Source: Candidatus Yanofskyibacteriota bacterium (GTDB lineage Bacteria; Patescibacteriota; Minisyncoccia; 2-02-FULL-40-12; GWA2-44-9). From it: a DNA stretch of 34,861 nt. The stretch spans positions 1-34,861 of the forward strand of contig JAHFKT010000007.1 of assembly GCA_023245235.1 (NCBI GenBank), written 5' to 3'. The position numbers were made by a program, and so were the translations under genes. Shown piece after piece: positions 20,321 through 29,122 of this stretch. Every line of letters begins with the position of its first letter. The stretch's first letter is position 1. The notes below the pieces were generated by a model, which did no database searches, had not been told where the DNA came from, and was given only the letters and a program-made list of their open reading frames with translations.

Positions 20321-21388
20321 TTATTTTCTTTCTTCTAAAACCGTTCTTGCTTTTATCTCCTTACCGTTGCGGAGGACCGTCATCTCTATCTGATCCCCGA
20401 CCTTTAATTTTTGCAACTCTTCCGAAAGGTCCGCGTCCTCGGTCAGCTCCTGGCCGTCCACATGAGTGATGATGTCATTTTCTTTGATGCCGGCCCGGTC
20501 GGCAGGGGAACCTGCCACAACTGCGACGGAGTTCGGCCGGTGATCGCGGATTACGAGCGCCCCGCGATCGCGGGACAGGCCGTATTGGTTCCGGTATTTA
20601 TTGTTCAGCATGACATAGAGCAGCCCCAAGAACGGCTTTATAATGCGTCCGTATTTGATGATGTCTTCCAGGTCCTGCTTGGCCCAATTGATGGGGAGTG
20701 CGAATCCGATGTTCTGCGCTCCGTAAATGATGGCCGTATTGATGCCGACGGCTTCGCCGTCGAGACTGATAAGCGGTCCGCCGGAGTTGCCCTGGTTGAT
20801 GGAAACATCGGTCTGAAGCACGCCGCGGAGGTGCTCCATCTCACCGGCGGTTCCCAGGGCGGCAGAAATGGTCCGGGACAGTCCGGAGATGATGCCCTTT
20901 GAGACGCTGTTCTTGAACATGCCCAGGGCATTGCCGATGGCAAGCACAGTCTGGCCGAGCTCGAGTTTTTTGGAGTTGCCCAGTTGCACGGTCGGCATAT
21001 TCTTGGCCTCTATTTTAACAACGGCGATATCAGTGACGGGATCGCGGGCCACGACTTTGGCCGGATACTCCTTGCCGTCGTTATCGATAACGGTATATTC
21101 AGCGTCGGTATCAAAAACAACATGCTTGTTGGTCAGTATCAGACCATCAGGATGAACGATAAAGCCCGACCCGCCGCCTACCTTGACCTTTTCCTTATCG
21201 CCGCCGAATCCGGGCTGTTCGCCAAATGAGAATGGGTTTGGAAAGGGTCCAAAAGGTCCGAAAGGGACTTGACCCTGTTTGATTGTCGGTAAAAACTTCG
21301 AGATGACGATGCTGACGACGGCCGGGGAAACCTTTTTAACGGCTTCGATCGGCAGTGAATCATACTGGTTGCTATTCATGGTTTCCAT
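20321..21388 (-). CDS. HtrA/DegP-like trypsin-fold protease with PDZ domain, no signal peptide
   Basis: 355 residues. The trypsin-fold domain has the full triad: His89 (T-N-K-H-V-V), Asp120 (D-P-V-T-D-I-A-V-V-K-I) and Ser202 (G-N-S-G-G-P-L). One C-terminal PDZ domain (about residues 255-350) has S-P-A-D-R-A-G-I-K-E-N-D-I-I and the D-G-Q-E-L loop. HtrA proteins degrade or refold damaged exported proteins, but here neither a signal peptide nor a membrane helix is visible, so it may act in the cytoplasm. A Phe/Pro/Gly-rich stretch at residues 42-62 fills the LA-loop region. Met4 (21379) is an alternative start, being better spaced from the TATATT -10 box on this strand at 21393-21398. Confidence 0.93.
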   Translation of the reverse strand: METMNSNQYDSLPIEAVKKVSPAVVSIVISKFLPTIKQGQVPFGPFGPFPNPFSFGEQPGFGGDKEKVKVGGGSGFIVHPDGLILTNKHVVFDTDAEYTVIDNDGKEYPAKVVARDPVTDIAVVKIEAKNMPTVQLGNSKKLELGQTVLAIGNALGMFKNSVSKGIISGLSRTISAALGTAGEMEHLRGVLQTDVSINQGNSGGPLISLDGEAVGINTAIIYGAQNIGFALPINWAKQDLEDIIKYGRIIKPFLGLLYVMLNNKYRNQYGLSRDRGALVIRDHRPNSVAVVAGSPADRAGIKENDIITHVDGQELTEDADLSEELQKLKVGDQIEMTVLRNGKEIKARTVLEERK

Positions 21389-21408: not shown

Positions 21409-21927
21409 ATGAGGAAAAAACTAGGCAGAAAATTCTTCCAAAGAAAGACGCTTATCGTGGCCAGAGAGCTGCTTGGCAAGTTTCTCATCCGCAGGTCCGG
21501 AGGCACGGTCATCGCCGCAAAGATCATTGAAACGGAAGCATATTGCGGCCCTCATGATAAAGCCTGCCATGCATCGAAGGGCCTCACGCCGCGGACACGG
21601 GTCATGTTCGGTCCGCCCGGGCATGCCTACGTCTACCTTGTATACGGGATGTATCATTGCCTGAATATCGTGACCGAGAAAGACGGTTATCCGGCGGCGG
21701 TACTTATCCGTGCGGTCGAGCATCCCAATGCCGATGGACCGGGCAAACTGTGCCGGGAGTTAAAGATAGATAAGAAGCTCAACGGTGCGGATGTCACATC
21801 GGGCGACAAACTCTGGGTAGAAGACCGGGGAGTGAGGGTCGCGGCGAGCGCGATCAAGCGCTCGCCGCGCATCGGCATCGATTATGCCGGTCCGTGGAAG
21901 CATAAGCTCTGGCGATTTTATCTTTGA
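21409..21927 (+). CDS. 3-methyladenine DNA glycosylase, AAG family
   Basis: 172 residues, a little shorter than the usual 190-200. This family flips out and excises alkylated and deaminated purines, leaving an abasic site. The N-terminal A-R-E-L-L-G-K-F-L is followed by the catalytic-glutamate motif I-E-T-E-A-Y-C-G-P-H-D-K-A-C-H-A, R-V-M-F-G-P-P-G-H-A-Y-V-Y and Y-G-M-Y-H-C-L-N-I-V, which includes the residue that intercalates in the DNA. The end R-S-P-R-I-G-I-D-Y-A-G is also typical. It is a monocistronic gene followed by the proteasome promoter. Confidence 0.95.
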   Translation: MRKKLGRKFFQRKTLIVARELLGKFLIRRSGGTVIAAKIIETEAYCGPHDKACHASKGLTPRTRVMFGPPGHAYVYLVYGMYHCLNIVTEKDGYPAAVLIRAVEHPNADGPGKLCRELKIDKKLNGADVTSGDKLWVEDRGVRVAASAIKRSPRIGIDYAGPWKHKLWRFYL

Positions 21928-21951
21928 CTTTGGCTCTCTGCGTGGTATCGT
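21924..21951 (+). promoter_or_regulatory. Predicted promoter of the proteasome operon
   Basis: TTGACT (21924-21929), 16-bp spacer, extended TGG-TATCGT (21946-21951); leader about 15 nt. The -35 overlaps the stop codon of the glycosylase gene. Confidence 0.65.
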
Positions 21952-21972: not shown

Positions 21973-22740
21973 ATGCGTAGAGAGTTAATTGAACGGGCGT
22001 TCAGCTCGATATTTCCTTCTCCGGTTCGGGCCCCCGGCGTAGTGCATGGCCAGAAGATCAACACCGTTGCTCAGTCCGGGACCACCGTCGTGGCCTTCCG
22101 GTACAAAGACGGCCTCATCATGGCCGCCGATCGCAAAACTTCAGGCGGATATTTCTTCATTGATAACCTGGAAGCCATGAAGATACACGAAGTCGCTGTA
22201 CATACCGGCTTTGGTGCCGCAGGCGCCGTTGCCCATATCCAGTTGGTTCTTCACGAACTGGAACTGATAAACAGTTCCTTCAGGTCCCGTGCACGGCATC
22301 CCTTGTCTGTCCGCGGACAGGTGAACTACATCTCCAATATGATCAGGGATTACTCCTTGTATGTGTGTCCCTGGGGCCTTGAGGCTCATTCGCTCATCGC
22401 CGGCATTGACCATGAGGGCGCGAGCATCTACGGAATATTCGTAGACGGTGCCGTACTGGAGTATCCCTACAGTTCTGTAGGATCGGGCAGCGATCAGGCG
22501 ATCGCGCGCCTTGACCAGGAACAGCGGCAGCTGAAAGCCGGCTCATTCAAGGAGAAAGCAGCGATCGAACTCGCACTGAGAGCCATCAGGCAAGCGGGTC
22601 TGCGAGATTCCGGAAGCTCTGATCTTCGGACCGCACTTCCGTCAGTGGCCAAGATCACCTACAAAAATGGATTCGAATTCATCGACGAGGATGTTCTCAA
22701 GCCGGTCGTCGCAGGCTTAGTTGAGGAGCTGAAGTCATGA
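21973..22740 (+). CDS. prcB: 20S proteasome beta subunit (PrcB-like)
   Basis: 255 residues: a propeptide of 36 residues, then the mature N-terminal nucleophile Thr37 in Q-S-G-T-T-V-V-A-F. In mature numbering Asp17 (A-A-D-R-K-T-S) is exactly placed and the catalytic Lys (E-A-M-K-I-H) is at 34, one residue later than usual. The later V-G-S-G-S-D matches the conserved Ser/Asp-containing loop near the active site. Length, propeptide and the adjoining alpha-like gene argue for a true 20S core rather than HslV. This subunit would cut peptides inside the barrel. ATGA overlap to the next gene. No Shine-Dalgarno sequence is seen. Confidence 0.9.
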   Translation: MRRELIERAFSSIFPSPVRAPGVVHGQKINTVAQSGTTVVAFRYKDGLIMAADRKTSGGYFFIDNLEAMKIHEVAVHTGFGAAGAVAHIQLVLHELELINSSFRSRARHPLSVRGQVNYISNMIRDYSLYVCPWGLEAHSLIAGIDHEGASIYGIFVDGAVLEYPYSSVGSGSDQAIARLDQEQRQLKAGSFKEKAAIELALRAIRQAGLRDSGSSDLRTALPSVAKITYKNGFEFIDEDVLKPVVAGLVEELKS

Positions 22741-23372
22741 AGCTTCGTCTGGGACTTCTCGAAGAATTCATAATTAAGAAAGTCGAAGCGGAGCAGCGGC
22801 TCTCGAACGCGTTTGCTGCTTTTGTGGTCACCAAAGACGGCCTGTGTTTCGTAGCCGCATCGAAAGTCTCGCCGGTCCGCGTTCAGCAGAACGAGAACTT
22901 CGGCGGCATCATCATCGGCGAAACCAACAAGGATACCGAAGAGATGACAAGCGTCTTCCGTGCCGTCTGCATGAGCATTCAGAGTGCGTATTCGGAGGAT
23001 GATGTTCACGCCCGCCTGGTCGTGGATATGATGAGCAACTACCTTCGCTGGACGATCGAAGACATGGACAGCCCGCAGGCCACAGCCAGTGAGATGCTTA
23101 TCTACGATATGCATCGCCAGGTCATCCATCAGATCTTCCTGAACGGAGATTTTACCGAGATACCGCTCGGCGAAACGAAGGAAAAGCAGTTCTTTGTCGG
23201 GGCGTACTCAAAGCGCTTGCGCCGGATGATCGCCAAGGAACTTCAGAAGATGCCCGAGGTCAGCAAGGCACTGAAGGATCCGAAGCTCATCGGTCCTGTG
23301 GTAAGTAAATTGGGAAAACTCACGGGGATGAAGTTTGTAAACGTCATCGCCGTGAAACGATCCGGGATCTAA
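22737..23372 (+). CDS. prcA: Proteasome alpha subunit-like protein (divergent PrcA)
   Basis: 211 residues. It has the N-terminal helix expected of alpha subunits (L-L-E-E-F-I-I-K-K-V-E-A-E-Q-R-L), followed by strands F-A-A-F-V-V-T-K-D-G-L-C-F-V-A-A-S-K-V and N-F-G-G-I-I-I-G-E-T, then the long helix D-T-E-E-M-T-S-V-F-R-A-V-C-M-S-I. This order matches the N-terminal half of actinobacterial PrcA. There is no catalytic threonine. The C-terminal part is divergent and lysine-rich, so the assignment rests on fold-like pattern and gene order (beta before alpha, ATGA overlap, as in Mycobacterium). GAGGAG lies 9 nt before its ATG. Confidence 0.7.
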   Translation: MKLRLGLLEEFIIKKVEAEQRLSNAFAAFVVTKDGLCFVAASKVSPVRVQQNENFGGIIIGETNKDTEEMTSVFRAVCMSIQSAYSEDDVHARLVVDMMSNYLRWTIEDMDSPQATASEMLIYDMHRQVIHQIFLNGDFTEIPLGETKEKQFFVGAYSKRLRRMIAKELQKMPEVSKALKDPKLIGPVVSKLGKLTGMKFVNVIAVKRSGI

Positions 23373-23390
23373 CCCCGGATTTTTCTTTTT
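23360..23390 (+). terminator. Terminator of the proteasome operon
   Basis: 7-bp stem ATCCGGG/CCCGGAT, loop with the stop codon, and a long T-rich run. Confidence 0.85.
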
Positions 23391-23416: not shown

Positions 23417-25108
23417 ATGACAGAGACTACAAAAAGGTTTTTGAACGGGCAAATTGCGACCGCCTCTGACGGCGTTTCTTTTGACGTTCTGACTCCGCCG
23501 GATCCCAAACTCGGGGATTACTCGACCAACCTTGCTTTTGTGCTTGCTAAGCGTGAAGGCAAGCGCCCGGTTGATGTCGCTAACGCGTTGAAGCTTGAGC
23601 TCGAAACGGACGAGATGAATGCCATCGCCGAGATCAAAGTCGCTCCGAATGGTTTTTTGAACTTCTTTTTAAAGCCGGAATTTCTTGAGAAGCAGTTTAG
23701 TTCAGTGGAAGCGGTAAATATCGGCGGGCAGAAAAAAGTCATCGTTGAATATTCATCGCCCAATATCGCCAAACCGATGCATATCGGCCACTTACGCTCG
23801 ACCATCATCGGCGATGCCCTGGCGAATGTCTATGAGAAACTCGGCTATGATGTCACACGCTGGAATTTCATCGGTGATTGGGGTACGCAATATGGGAAAG
23901 TAATTGTTCAGATAAAAAAAGAACTTGAGGATTCAGGAAAACCCCTCAGCGAAATTTATGTTAGCGATATAAACACCTCTGCGAAAGCCTATGTGAAATT
24001 TCACGAAGACACGAAATTAAATCCAGGACTTGAGGATAAAGCTAGAGAAGAATTCAAAAAACTTGAAGAAGGAGATTCGGAAAATAAAGTAATTTGGGAA
24101 AGAGATAAGAAAGAAAGCCTCAGGGAGCTGTCTCGAATTTTTAAAGAGTTAGGGGTTCCAGATTCTGATATGGTGAGAAAAGGTGAGAGTGACTATGAGC
24201 CTAGGCTTAAACCCTTGATCGCTGAACTCGAGCAAAAAGGAGTTGCCAAAGAGAGCGAGGGGGCGCTGATCATTGAACTGGATAATTTGGCGCCGGCACT
24301 GTTGCGTAAGTCTGATGGTGCGACGCTTTATATGACCCGTGACCTCGCCAGCCTCGAAGATCGTATCCAAAACTATCAACCTGCGAAGATTCTGTATGTG
24401 GTTGCAAACCAACAGGCACTCCACTTTGAGCAACTGTTCGCAGTTGCAAAGAAGCTCGGATGGAACAGTGCGGAACTGGAGCATGTAAAGTTCGGCATGG
24501 TTCTCGGAGAAGATGGGAAAAAACTGGCTACCCGGGAAGGGAAGGTTGTGTTGCTCGAGGATGTTCTTAGAGAAGCCGAAGCCAAAGCTTTAAAGGTAGT
24601 GAAAGAAAAAAATCCTGATGCTAAAAATCCCGAAGAGATAGCCCGCGTCATCGCACTAGGCGGCCTGAAGTATAACGACCTTAAACAGCATCCGCACACG
24701 GACATTAAGTTCGATTGGGACTCCATGCTGGATTTTGCCGGCAATAGCGGGCCGTACCTTCAATATACCTATGCCCGATTTGCCAATATTCTGTCGAAAG
24801 CCGGAACAGGAGACCGGCCGACGTCATTGCCTCTCGGCCTTGATCCTGAAGGGAAGTTGATCGAGCATCACGTAAATAAATATTGGGATATTTTGATCGA
24901 ATGCACTCAGGTCAACGCGCTGACCGGCTTGGCTTTATACTTGTACGAGCTTGCGGCACTCCTGAACCGTTTCTACGAAAGTGTTCGGGTGCTTGATGAA
25001 AAGGATACAGATAAGAAGAACGCGCGCTTGCGTCTGATAAAAATCGCGTCCGATAATTTAGCGGATGGTCTTAAACTCCTCGGCATCCAAACCCTCGAGC
25101 GGATTTGA
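23417..25108 (+). CDS. argS: Arginyl-tRNA synthetase
   Basis: 563 residues, normal for bacterial ArgRS. It charges tRNA-Arg and, unlike most synthetases, needs tRNA for amino-acid activation. The N-terminal tRNA-binding domain has P-D-P-K-L-G-D-Y-S-T-N-L-A, then P-M-H-I-G-H-L-R-S-T-I-I-G-D with the HIGH motif. The KMSKS position reads G-K-K-L-A-T-R-E-G-K-V, as is common in ArgRS. The C-terminal helical domain contains A-L-Y-L-Y-E-L-A-A-L-L-N-R-F-Y. The stretch 23890-24240 is visibly more AT-rich than the rest of the gene. Confidence 0.97.
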   Translation: MTETTKRFLNGQIATASDGVSFDVLTPPDPKLGDYSTNLAFVLAKREGKRPVDVANALKLELETDEMNAIAEIKVAPNGFLNFFLKPEFLEKQFSSVEAVNIGGQKKVIVEYSSPNIAKPMHIGHLRSTIIGDALANVYEKLGYDVTRWNFIGDWGTQYGKVIVQIKKELEDSGKPLSEIYVSDINTSAKAYVKFHEDTKLNPGLEDKAREEFKKLEEGDSENKVIWERDKKESLRELSRIFKELGVPDSDMVRKGESDYEPRLKPLIAELEQKGVAKESEGALIIELDNLAPALLRKSDGATLYMTRDLASLEDRIQNYQPAKILYVVANQQALHFEQLFAVAKKLGWNSAELEHVKFGMVLGEDGKKLATREGKVVLLEDVLREAEAKALKVVKEKNPDAKNPEEIARVIALGGLKYNDLKQHPHTDIKFDWDSMLDFAGNSGPYLQYTYARFANILSKAGTGDRPTSLPLGLDPEGKLIEHHVNKYWDILIECTQVNALTGLALYLYELAALLNRFYESVRVLDEKDTDKKNARLRLIKIASDNLADGLKLLGIQTLERI

Positions 25109-25653: not shown

Positions 25654-25676
25654 AGCCGCTTTCAGCGGCTTTTTTG
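25654..25676 (+). terminator. Terminator after the YdjM-like gene
   Basis: Perfect 7-bp stem AGCCGCT/AGCGGCT with TTC loop and a T-run. Confidence 0.85.
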
Positions 25677-25677
25677 A

Positions 25678-25706
25678 TTGGAAAATGGCACTTTTCATGC
25701 TATTAT
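25678..25706 (+). promoter_or_regulatory. Predicted leaderless promoter of the ileS operon
   Basis: TTGGAA (25678-25683), 17-bp spacer, TATTAT (25701-25706). The expected transcription start is within about 3 nt of the ATG at 25716 and rules out the longer frame from 25674. Confidence 0.6.
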
Positions 25707-25715
25707 TCAGTCCGG

Positions 25716-28700
25716 ATGTACGACTTCAAGAAAACAGAGACGGCTGTCCGGCATTTCTGGGACGACCACACGATTTTCGAGAAATCTCTTGAACAGCGCC
25801 GTAAGGCGAAACGTTTTGTGTTCTGGGAAGGCCCGCCGACCGCCAATGGCAAACCGCATATCGGTCACTTCCTGACCCGGGTCTACAAAGACCTCTACGG
25901 ACGGTATAAGACCATGGGCGGTTTTTTTGTCCTCCGAAAAGCCGGCTGGGACACTCACGGATTGCCTGTGGAGATAGAAGTTGAGAAAGAGCTTGGCTTC
26001 ACCAACAAAAAGCAGATAGAAGAGTACGGCATCGCCAAGTTCAACCGGAAGGCCAAAGAGAGCGTTTGGAAATACAAAAAAGATTGGGAGGACATGACCC
26101 GGCAGATGGGATTTTGGCTGGACCTCGACCATCCGTACGTCACATATGAGAACAGCTACATGGAGTCCGTCTGGTATATCCTCCAGCAGATGTGGAACAA
26201 GGGACTACTGTTTCAGGCCCACAAGGTGGTGCCGTTTTGCACGCGCTGCGGCACGCCGCTCTCGGCCCACGAAGTTTCCCAGGGTTATAAAAAAGTCACC
26301 GAACGGTCTGTTTATCTAAAATTCAAAATCGTCGGACAAAAAGATACTTACATTCTCGCGTGGACCACAACCCCGTGGACATTGCCCGGCAATGTCGCTC
26401 TCGCTGTCGGGGCGGATATCCGTTACGTCTACGCCAGGAAAGACGGGCAGACGTATATTCTTGCAAAAGACCTGGCCGAAAAAGTTCTCGACGGGGGATT
26501 CACGACAGAAAAAGAAGTTTCAGGCGGTGAACTCGTCGGCCTTTCGTATGAGCCGCTGTTTGATGTGCCCGAACTGCAATCGGAGAATTCATACAAAGTG
26601 TATGCCGCTGATTTTGTTTCGACTCATGACGGCACCGGAGTGGTCCATACCGCGGTAATGTACGGCGAGGACGACTACAATCTCGGAACAAAACTGGGAT
26701 TGCCTAAATTCCACACCGTCAATGAGGCCGGGAAATTCATAGCGGCAGCCGGAACCGACCTTGAGGGAAAGTATGTGAAGGCCAAAGCGACCGAGGATTT
26801 TATTGTCAAAAAATTAGAAGAGAAGGGCCTGCTTCTGAAGTCCGAGGATTATGAGCATGACTATCCGTTCTGCTGGCGCTGCGGCACGCCTTTATTGTAT
26901 TACGCCAAGACCTCCTGGTTCATTAAGACGTCAGCCGTCAATAAAGAACTCCTGGCCAATAATGCTTCGGTCAATTGGATCCCGGAGCACATCCGTGATG
27001 GCCGGTTCGGCCAGTGGATCAGAGAGGGGAAGGACTGGGCATTGTCCCGGGAACGCTATTGGGGTACGCCGTTGCCGATCTGGGAGTGCGACCAATGCGA
27101 CAACAAGGTCACTATTCTGTCAAAGAACTCGAGAAGCTTTCGGTCGGTCCGAAGAACACATATTATCTGCTTCGCCATGGCGGTACGACCCGCAACGAAA
27201 TGACCGACGGCATCATTAACTCTCAACTTAAGCACGACACATATCATTTGACCCCTGACGGCCAGGCAATGGTTGAACGCTCACTCCGGCTCTTGCAGTT
27301 GGACGGCGTTGACCTGATATATGCTTCGCCGTTCACACGCACCCAGGAGACCGCGAAAATAGCGGCCAAGGTCCTGCATCGGGACATAAATACCGATGAG
27401 CGCCTGGTTGAACTTAACTGCGGCACCGGCTGCGAAGGAAAACCCCACGCATTATGCCCGGGCCTTAACGGGCCGCGGACCATGGACACAAAAGAGCCGG
27501 ACGGAGAAAGCTGGACCGATGTCCGCCTGCGCCTGATGGATTTCATGACCGAGATGGAGTCAAAATACCGTAATAAGAAGATACTCATCGTCAGCCATGG
27601 TGACCCGCTCTGGCTTCTCAATGCTGTTGGCAATGGTTCGACCGCCGCTCAAATACTCGAGAAAGACAACCCGTACCAGTGGTATCCGACACTGGGCGAA
27701 CTCAAGAAAATCACTTGGCGGAAGATCCCGCGCAATGAAACAGGTGAACTGGACCTCCATCGGCCATATATCGACAGCGTTGTCATCAAGTGCCCTAAGT
27801 GCAAATCAAAAATGAGGAAGATCCCGGACCTTATCGATGTCTGGTTCGATTCCGGCGCGATGCCGTTTGCTCAGTGGCACTACCCGTTCGAGAATAAGCC
27901 GATGTTCAAAAATCAGTTCCCGGCCGATTTCATCGTTGAAGCGATAGACCAGACCCGCGGCTGGTTTTGGACTTTGCTGGCGATCGCAACCTCGCTCGGC
28001 TACTCCGCTCCGTATAAGAATGTGATGGTTCTCGGCCACACGCTTGATGAGAAGGGTCAGAAAATGTCCAAGTCCAAAAAGAATTTCGTGCCGGTCATGG
28101 AACTTATGGATACGTACGGAGCCGATGTGCTGCGCTGGTATCTGTTCTCTTCCGTGGCCGCCGGGGAGGGCAAGGCGATCATTGCTAAAGAGATCGAGGC
28201 CAAACTGAAAGGATTCGTGTTCACACTCCAGAACTGCATCCGTTTCTACGAGTTGTACGCGGTCAGTACGGCAAAGACCGCTCCGGCTAAACTTACCGTT
28301 CTGGATAAATGGATATTGTCGCGGCTCCATCGGTTGATAGCAGATGTTTCTACACGACTTGAACAGTACGATGTCGTCACAGCGGTCCGGGCTATAGAAA
28401 ATTTCGTCACGGAAGATCTGTCGAACTGGTGGGTGCGCCGTTCCCGCAAACGCAAAGAAGCTCTGCCGCTGCTTCGGTTGATACTTCTTGAAACTTCAAA
28501 ACTGCTGGCGCCGTTCGTGCCGTTCATGGCCGAGGACATGTATCGCCGGCTTGGCGGCGAAGGAGAGAGCGTTCATTTGACCGACTGGCCAAAGCCGGCG
28601 AAGAAATATCTGAATGAAAATCTTGAGAGTGAGATGGCGCAGGTCAAAGACGTCATCGCCATGGGCCTGGCTCAGCGCAAAGAGAAACAGCTCAAGGTCC

Positions 28701-29122
28701 GGCAGCCCCTGAGGCTGATCTCCTTGAAGCGGGATAAGCTGAGCAAGGACCTGGAATCATTGATCAAAGATGAGCTGAACATCAAACAGATAAAATATGA
28801 TAAAAGTCAGGAACATGAGTTGGTACTTGATGTGGAGATGACGCCTGCGCTCATCCAGGAAGGATATGCCCGCGAACTGATGCGCCAGATCCAGGATATG
28901 CGCAAAGAGGCCAAGTATCGTATGGATGACTTAGTGTTCGCCCACTGGCACAGCGACAGTCCGGATATCGTACAGGCCTTGGCCACCTGGAGCGAAGAGA
29001 TAAAACGGGACACGCTGTTAAAAACATTGGAACAGCAGCCGAAAGATTCAAAGGCCTACGACATCGAGAAGGAGACAGAACTGGCTCCGGGCAAAATCAT
29101 CTGGCTGGGCATCAAAAAATAG
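25716..29122 (+). CDS. ileS: Isoleucyl-tRNA synthetase with inserted histidine-phosphatase domain; one frameshift
   Basis: About 1135 residues once one frameshift is corrected. HIGH motif at residues 48-51, CP1 editing region with A-W-T-T-T-P-W-T-L-P-G-N, catalytic core resuming at D-L-H-R-P-Y-I-D (about 680), KMSKS at 783-787, then the anticodon domain. The motifs and the G-W-D-T-H-G-L-P-V-E-I-E-V-E-K-E-L start are of the eukaryote/archaea-like type 2 IleRS, the type linked elsewhere to mupirocin resistance. Residues of about 482-672 are a histidine phosphatase domain. The frame changes at 27114-27118, consistent with one missing base after T-I; a 4-base loss that also removed a Gly codon is equally possible. 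First gene of a five-gene operon. Confidence 0.93.
27150..27735 (+). other. Histidine phosphatase (phosphoglycerate-mutase-like) domain inserted in IleRS
   Basis: The insert carries the full catalytic set of the branch-1 histidine phosphatases: L-L-R-H-G-G-T-T-R-N-E with phospho-acceptor His488 and Arg487, S-P-F-T-R-T-Q-E-T-A with the second Arg, D-E-R-L-V-E-L-N with the acid, and I-V-S-H-G-D-P-L-W with the second His. It lies between S-V-K-E-L-E-K-L-S and D-L-H-R-P-Y-I-D, which are adjacent in ordinary IleRS. The length of about 190 residues is a complete domain. It could act on a phosphate ester or phosphoanhydride; its substrate is unknown. Confidence 0.9.

Follow-up and report, generated by a model that had tools for sequence, protein, structure and literature searches.

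The 20S proteasome is a protein-degrading barrel of archaea, eukaryotes and a few bacteria. According to a review, proteasomes are unusual among bacteria and restricted to Actinomycetota (PMC6466877), PafA/Dop genes are known from Nitrospirae and sporadically from a few other phyla, Patescibacteria not being among those named (PMC7947786, PMC2588565), and the main text of a survey of 22 new proteasome homologues leaves CPR/Patescibacteria unmentioned (PMC8665760). The stretch of DNA analyzed here (34,861 nucleotides, referred to as the window) carries two overlapping open reading frames which a preliminary description had read as a 20S operon of a likely CPR bacterium, and it raises the question whether such an organism encodes a genuine 20S core and how this core would be supplied with substrates.

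The window corresponds to contig C33 of a genome (G000) of 825,704 bases in 42 contigs, which is 95.3% complete. Records of relatives from the same family are assigned to Ca. Yanofskybacteria and Ca. Paceibacterota, which places G000 in the Patescibacteria, Paceibacteria type, so that the proposed CPR host is borne out by taxonomy and by a genome of 826 kb. At 95% completeness a single gene may be missing. A full-text literature search, with subscription papers and preprints outside its scope and hence no claim to priority, returned no paper on proteasome or pupylation genes in Patescibacteria.

The beta-alpha gene pair

The features of the locus are as follows.

20321..21388, minus strand: htrA/degP-like serine protease, left border of the chromosomal slot (Pfam Trypsin_2 and PDZ; conserved in relatives)
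21409..21927, plus strand: methylpurine-DNA glycosylase (MPG), a frequent slot occupant (PF02245, 198 bits)
21924..21951, plus strand: tentative sigma-70-like promoter match, TTGACT-16-TATCGT with TG before the -10 element (consensus only)
21973..22740, plus strand: proteasome beta subunit (prcB-like), 255 aa (PF00227, PDB beta matches, residue alignment)
21973..22080, plus strand: beta propeptide, 36 aa, with predicted autolytic removal before Thr1 (sequence; Thr1 aligned with known betas)
22737..23372, plus strand: prcA-like gene for a diverged proteasome alpha subunit of 211 aa; N-terminal helix followed by an Ntn fold (family profile, hhalign, AF2 with Foldseek)
23359..23381, plus strand: hairpin resembling a terminator, with TTTCTTTTTC after it; it overlaps the stop codon of alpha
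23417..25108, plus strand: argS, right border of the slot (homologue in 43 of the 45 genomes of the order)

The first frame matches PF00227 with 99.9 bits (E 1.9e-28), passing the Pfam cut-off. On the named NCBIfam models it reaches 95.7 bits for archaeal beta, 63.6 bits for bacterial beta and 11.8 bits for HslV, the curated cut-offs being 224, 191.9 and 137 bits, respectively; since all of these scores fall below their cut-offs, the protein is regarded as a proteasome beta outside the curated subfamilies. Grouping with HslV, against which the preliminary description had proposed to check the pair, is excluded by the same scores, and no HslU-type AAA_2 protein was found in G000. A single-sequence search of the PDB returned an archaeal beta as top match (6he5 chain, A. 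fulgidus-type, E 2.3e-17), and the best 60 PDB matches of the beta profile were all proteasome beta. Alignment with Rokubacterial, actinobacterial and archaeal betas and with E. coli HslV placed the mature Thr1 at residue 37, directly after the 36-residue propeptide, and D17, K33, G47, S129, D166 and S169 at D53, K70, G84, S171, D212 and S215, whereby the propeptide, Thr nucleophile, Asp17 and Lys announced in the preliminary description were all recovered. Furthermore, beta homologues are present in 11 of 95 genomes searched as relatives (own genome counted), which argues against a chance similarity. At the level of sequence, the window beta is firmly identified as a 20S proteasome beta subunit.

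The second frame, likewise on the plus strand, overlaps the first by ATGA (22737-22740). Searched as a single sequence, its product matched nothing of note in Pfam, NCBIfam or the PDB. In the close relatives examined, beta is immediately followed by a homologue of this frame (2e-27 in L003), which is considered real for this reason. A profile of 11 alpha-family proteins, which includes less diverged alphas linked to Pup genes (a profile of the stand-alone type, termed type II below, being weaker), yielded as significant PDB matches only proteasome alpha of Rhodococcus (8.6e-7) and of M. tuberculosis (1e-4), and scored up to 57 bits on the alpha genes of further proteasome operons, those of Rokubacteria among them. 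When the type II alphas alone were compared via hhalign, the E value was 1.5e-7 for the alphas of Pup-linked clusters in Patescibacteria, 3.7e-5 for the Rokubacterial and other ones and 8e-4 for the type II betas, as compared with 0.08-0.7 for unrelated neighbours as negative controls; with the four alphas of family f1 only, the values were much weaker (0.0035-0.019).

An AlphaFold (AF2) model of moderate confidence (pLDDT 63.7, pTM 0.61, four-sequence alignment) begins with an N-terminal helix, after which strands and helices succeed one another as they should in a proteasome fold. The best PDB matches of this model in Foldseek were proteasome chains, mostly from M. tuberculosis and with alpha chains among them (E about 2e-6 to 1e-5, TM 0.54-0.64), and in the alignment type II and proteasome alphas have a Y/F-S-x-x-D motif in common. 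An N-terminal helix has been described for proteasome alpha subunits only (PMC8665760), and a separate, catalytically inactive alpha with helix H0, which marks membership of the 20S type, is indicated here by profile and model alike. On gene position, profile, hhalign and predicted fold the second frame is firmly assigned as a very diverged proteasome alpha subunit. The 20S-type pair in prcB-prcA order with ATGA overlap, as initially proposed, thus stands with exact coordinates; in the profile search named there as a test of alpha similarity, the second protein fails as a single sequence, but a profile of its relatives reaches proteasome alphas, as does the predicted fold.

A promoter and terminator of its own had also been ascribed to the pair. 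This part of the description is weaker: both sites exist and are well placed, yet shuffled sequence yields similar matches, and the region contains 3 promoter-like matches where 0.9 are expected.

Proteasome loci in the class and the chromosomal slot

In the class two kinds of loci were found, namely Pup-proteasome clusters with ARC-type ATPase, PafA/Dop, Pup, beta and alpha (type I) and stand-alone beta-alpha pairs (type II). In G032 (L129) and G037 (L122), both of type I, the genes run consecutively: first an ARC-like ATPase, then two members of the PafA/Dop family, Pup, beta and alpha. In G087 (L121) Pup comes last, after the ATPase, two PafA/Dop genes, beta and alpha, and in G007 (L123), which has one PafA/Dop gene, beta, alpha and an ATPase, no convincing Pup was found. 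The ATPase frame of G087 (L121:4184-5776) is interrupted by a stop codon, the cluster being otherwise complete. The Pup genes end in GE or GQ, one in L178 in NYVQKGGE. Type II comprises G000, G018 (L069), G022 (L070), G016 (L071), G031, G039 and G041, and further betas without a Pup ligase are carried by G055 and G064.

A strong beta match (E < 1e-20) is present in 20 of 384 sampled genomes of the class, and 13 of these 20 are devoid of a Pup ligase match. Within the order the distribution is patchy (10 of 45 genomes); each of these has a single beta match, and no genome of the order was found with both types together. Across the phylum, PF00227 mostly matches other Ntn homologues without an alpha partner. 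As a separate observation, 17 of the 24 Paceibacteria genomes with a Pup ligase match gave no proteasome beta match at E <= 0.001 (G376, G426, G443, G459, G514, G555 and others, several of them with 3-5 PafA/Dop matches); these genomes may pupylate proteins while having no proteasome, or their betas may have diverged beyond the reach of the search.

The type II pair occupies a conserved slot, smpB-htrA-[MPG]-beta-alpha-argS-ileS, in which MPG is variably present. It lies between htrA and argS in the window, L069, L070, L071, L126 and L127; in L128 (G039) the contig starts just before beta and the argS-ileS side alone is visible. Close relatives of the order have an empty slot (L137, L142, L144, L148), and elsewhere in the order it is taken up in L141 by a methylpurine glycosylase, in L138 by a NUDIX-like gene and in L139, L140, L143 and L145-L147 by genes for ClpP-like or M16 peptidases, the genes of these pair-free loci being named partly by reading the sequences. 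The htrA-argS interval thus varies across sister genomes between the proteasome pair, diverged ClpP-like proteins, an M16 peptidase or nothing. In the adjacent ileS (25674-29122, plus strand) an inserted histidine phosphatase domain (PF00300, 89.9 bits) separates the catalytic parts. L126 and L128 have this insertion too, in genes that are single frames; in the window ileS is split over two overlapping frames at about 27014-27203, owing to a frameshift or an assembly error.

The window beta has 24-37% identity to the other type II betas. T1, D17 and K33 are retained in 7 of 7 type II genomes of the order, including three more distant ones (the f2/f3 branch) in which S129, D166 and S169 are lost, so that in some members activity may be on the way to loss or alteration. 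The beta tree supports f1 (98/93) and f2/f3 (100/98) each as a group, but neither their union nor the deep branches. Archaeal betas form a clade of their own. A recent transfer from Actinomycetota, Rokubacteria or archaea was rejected, with these groups falling into their own supported clades without type II sequences, although the deep branching is weak; a scan of viral contigs gave no relative, and a viral or mobile origin was likewise set aside. E. coli HslV joins a long Patescibacteria branch (82/73), which the tree program flags as a possible long-branch artefact. The preliminary description held bacterial proteasomes to stem most likely from transfer; nothing in the tree points to a single recent one out of Actinomycetota or archaea. 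That three families have the pair in one position, with identities of 24-37%, suggests that it is old and has been lost repeatedly, instead of having been acquired recently and independently.

A core apparently without dedicated partners

The preliminary description had pointed to Pup, PafA/Dop and ARC/Mpa as genes to be sought in the genome, and none of them was detected in G000. PafA/Dop (PF03136) gave no match in G000 or in the other eight stand-alone-beta genomes scanned, the positive controls G007, G037 and G087 being matched and type I scores amounting to 225-359 bits. A lineage-specific Pup profile, which matches five type I genomes with E values of 4.6e-13 to 1.5e-19 (its own training sequences among them), had no match in G000 or the type II genomes, and no Pup-like frame was found beside the window pair. 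In an AAA scan ARC was not found in type II genomes. The seven AAA matches of G000 comprise one orphan AAA protein, FtsH, Lon and, as named from their sequences, DnaX, RuvB, DnaA and a ComM-like protein; a PAN/Cdc48-type ATPase was not identified among the proteins of G000. The orphan (L134:1458-2612, contig C9) has 384 residues and an FtsH-like AAA domain, with neither a protease domain nor a Pfam OB-domain match; lacking a clear counterpart in the other type II AAA lists, it was not adopted as a dedicated partner. ClpP, ClpX, ClpB and HslU were not detected in G000, G018, G022 and G016, the only AAA_2 match of G000 being the DnaX-like protein, below the cut-off.

In the alpha alignment, type II alphas do not conserve a K-I/V-x-E-x-Y-D-R segment of the Pup-linked alphas, which probably contains the lysine to which activators bind with their C-terminal tails. 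As the alignment is at its limit here, loss of this docking motif is only suggestive of ATPase independence and was rejected as proof of it.

Without Pup genes, a dedicated ATPase or a detectable ClpP, the barrel may be fed some other way, and the lack of Clp-type ATPases, the few AAA candidates and the unconserved docking motif favor a core for already unfolded proteins or one served by a housekeeping partner. The pair would encode a 20S-type core particle of alpha and beta rings whose beta subunit processes itself, exposing Thr1, and cuts peptide bonds inside the barrel. In the type II lineage, pupylation and a dedicated ARC/Mpa-type unfoldase would be absent; unfolded, damaged or intrinsically disordered proteins and peptides would enter directly through the alpha gate, or else a housekeeping partner or some activator as yet unrecognised would open that gate. 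With ClpP apparently absent, its vacant role in the cytosol would fall to this core. We consider this reading as a whole rather probable. That the window core is catalytically competent and works without Pup and without a dedicated AAA unfoldase is most likely, while we infer its assembly, proteolytic activity, ATP-independence and substrate class from the genes. For 20S particles elsewhere, ATP-independent clearing of unstructured proteins has been described (PMC8665760). It counts against the present reading that the bacterial 20S particles known so far have a gate and depend on a regulator (PMC6466877). The narrower version, an alpha and beta 20S acting as an ATPase-free, tag-free cytosolic protease that replaces ClpP in a slot where sisters carry ClpP-like peptidases, is put forward tentatively, as possible rather than probable.

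Feeding of the core by a shared or unrecognised AAA protein other than ARC/Mpa (FtsH, Lon, the orphan AAA protein of G000 or, in some relatives, a ClpX-like protein) is a rather unlikely alternative: FtsH-type matches occur in nearly all genomes scanned and Lon-type matches in most, the orphan of G000 is free of a protease domain, and a ClpX-like ATPase is found in G031 and in G039, the latter without a detected ClpP. However, FtsH and Lon have protease domains of their own, no non-housekeeping AAA is evidently common to type II when the AAA list is read by open-frame size, and the lysine-containing motif is not conserved.

It is improbable that the pair is a repurposed heteromer which keeps the Ntn fold for specific processing or ligation (cf. 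connectase) instead of bulk degradation. New functions are known in the proteasome-like family (PMC8665760), and the strong divergence among type II betas and the losses in the f2/f3 branch would fit, but the window beta has a complete active site and propeptide, and an alpha partner with N-terminal helix is retained. Intact frames with coding-type base composition and ATGA overlap, all catalytic residues, neighbours conserved across three families and the invariant T1, D17 and K33 render a decaying, non-functional relic of an ancestral Pup-proteasome very improbable in G000, despite the patchy distribution, the empty slot of close relatives and the missing accessory genes. That a full Pup system exists but escaped detection, lying in the roughly 5% of the genome absent from the 42 contigs, is scarcely credible, given the same absence in G018, G022, G016, G031, G039 and G041 (90-100% complete), the positive controls for PafA/Dop (three genomes) and Pup (five), and type I Pup genes that adjoin beta and alpha, which is not so in the window.

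Significance and comparison with known systems

Pup-proteasome clusters and stand-alone cores in Patescibacteria extend the range of the proteasome to one of the largest bacterial groups and bear on whether bacterial proteasomes are old with repeated loss or spread by transfer. Furthermore, natural alpha/beta cores without an evident dedicated ATPase make it directly testable whether a 20S particle is of use to a cell when no ATP-driven unfolding takes place.

With HslV, Anbu and BPH the window beta shares the Ntn-hydrolase beta fold and Thr1/D17/K33; these are beta-only complexes, whereas the window beta has an alpha partner. Propeptides occur in proteasome beta and HslV and not in other homologues (PMC8665760). 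The archaeal 20S is closest to the window beta by single sequence (2.3e-17; model 95.7 bits), but the score lies below the 224-bit cut-off, beta precedes alpha in one operon, and a PAN/Cdc48-type ATPase was not identified. From the Actinomycetota Pup-proteasome (prcBA, ARC/Mpa, PafA, Dop, Pup) the locus differs in that Pup, PafA/Dop and ARC went undetected in G000, that its alpha lies below Pfam and NCBIfam detection and that its beta scores 63.6 bits against a cut-off of 191.9. Common to both are the beta-alpha order, the beta propeptide, Thr1/D17/K33/S129/D166 and the predicted N-terminal helix of alpha, and Pup-proteasome clusters are present in the sister Paceibacteria genomes of L121, L122 and L129.
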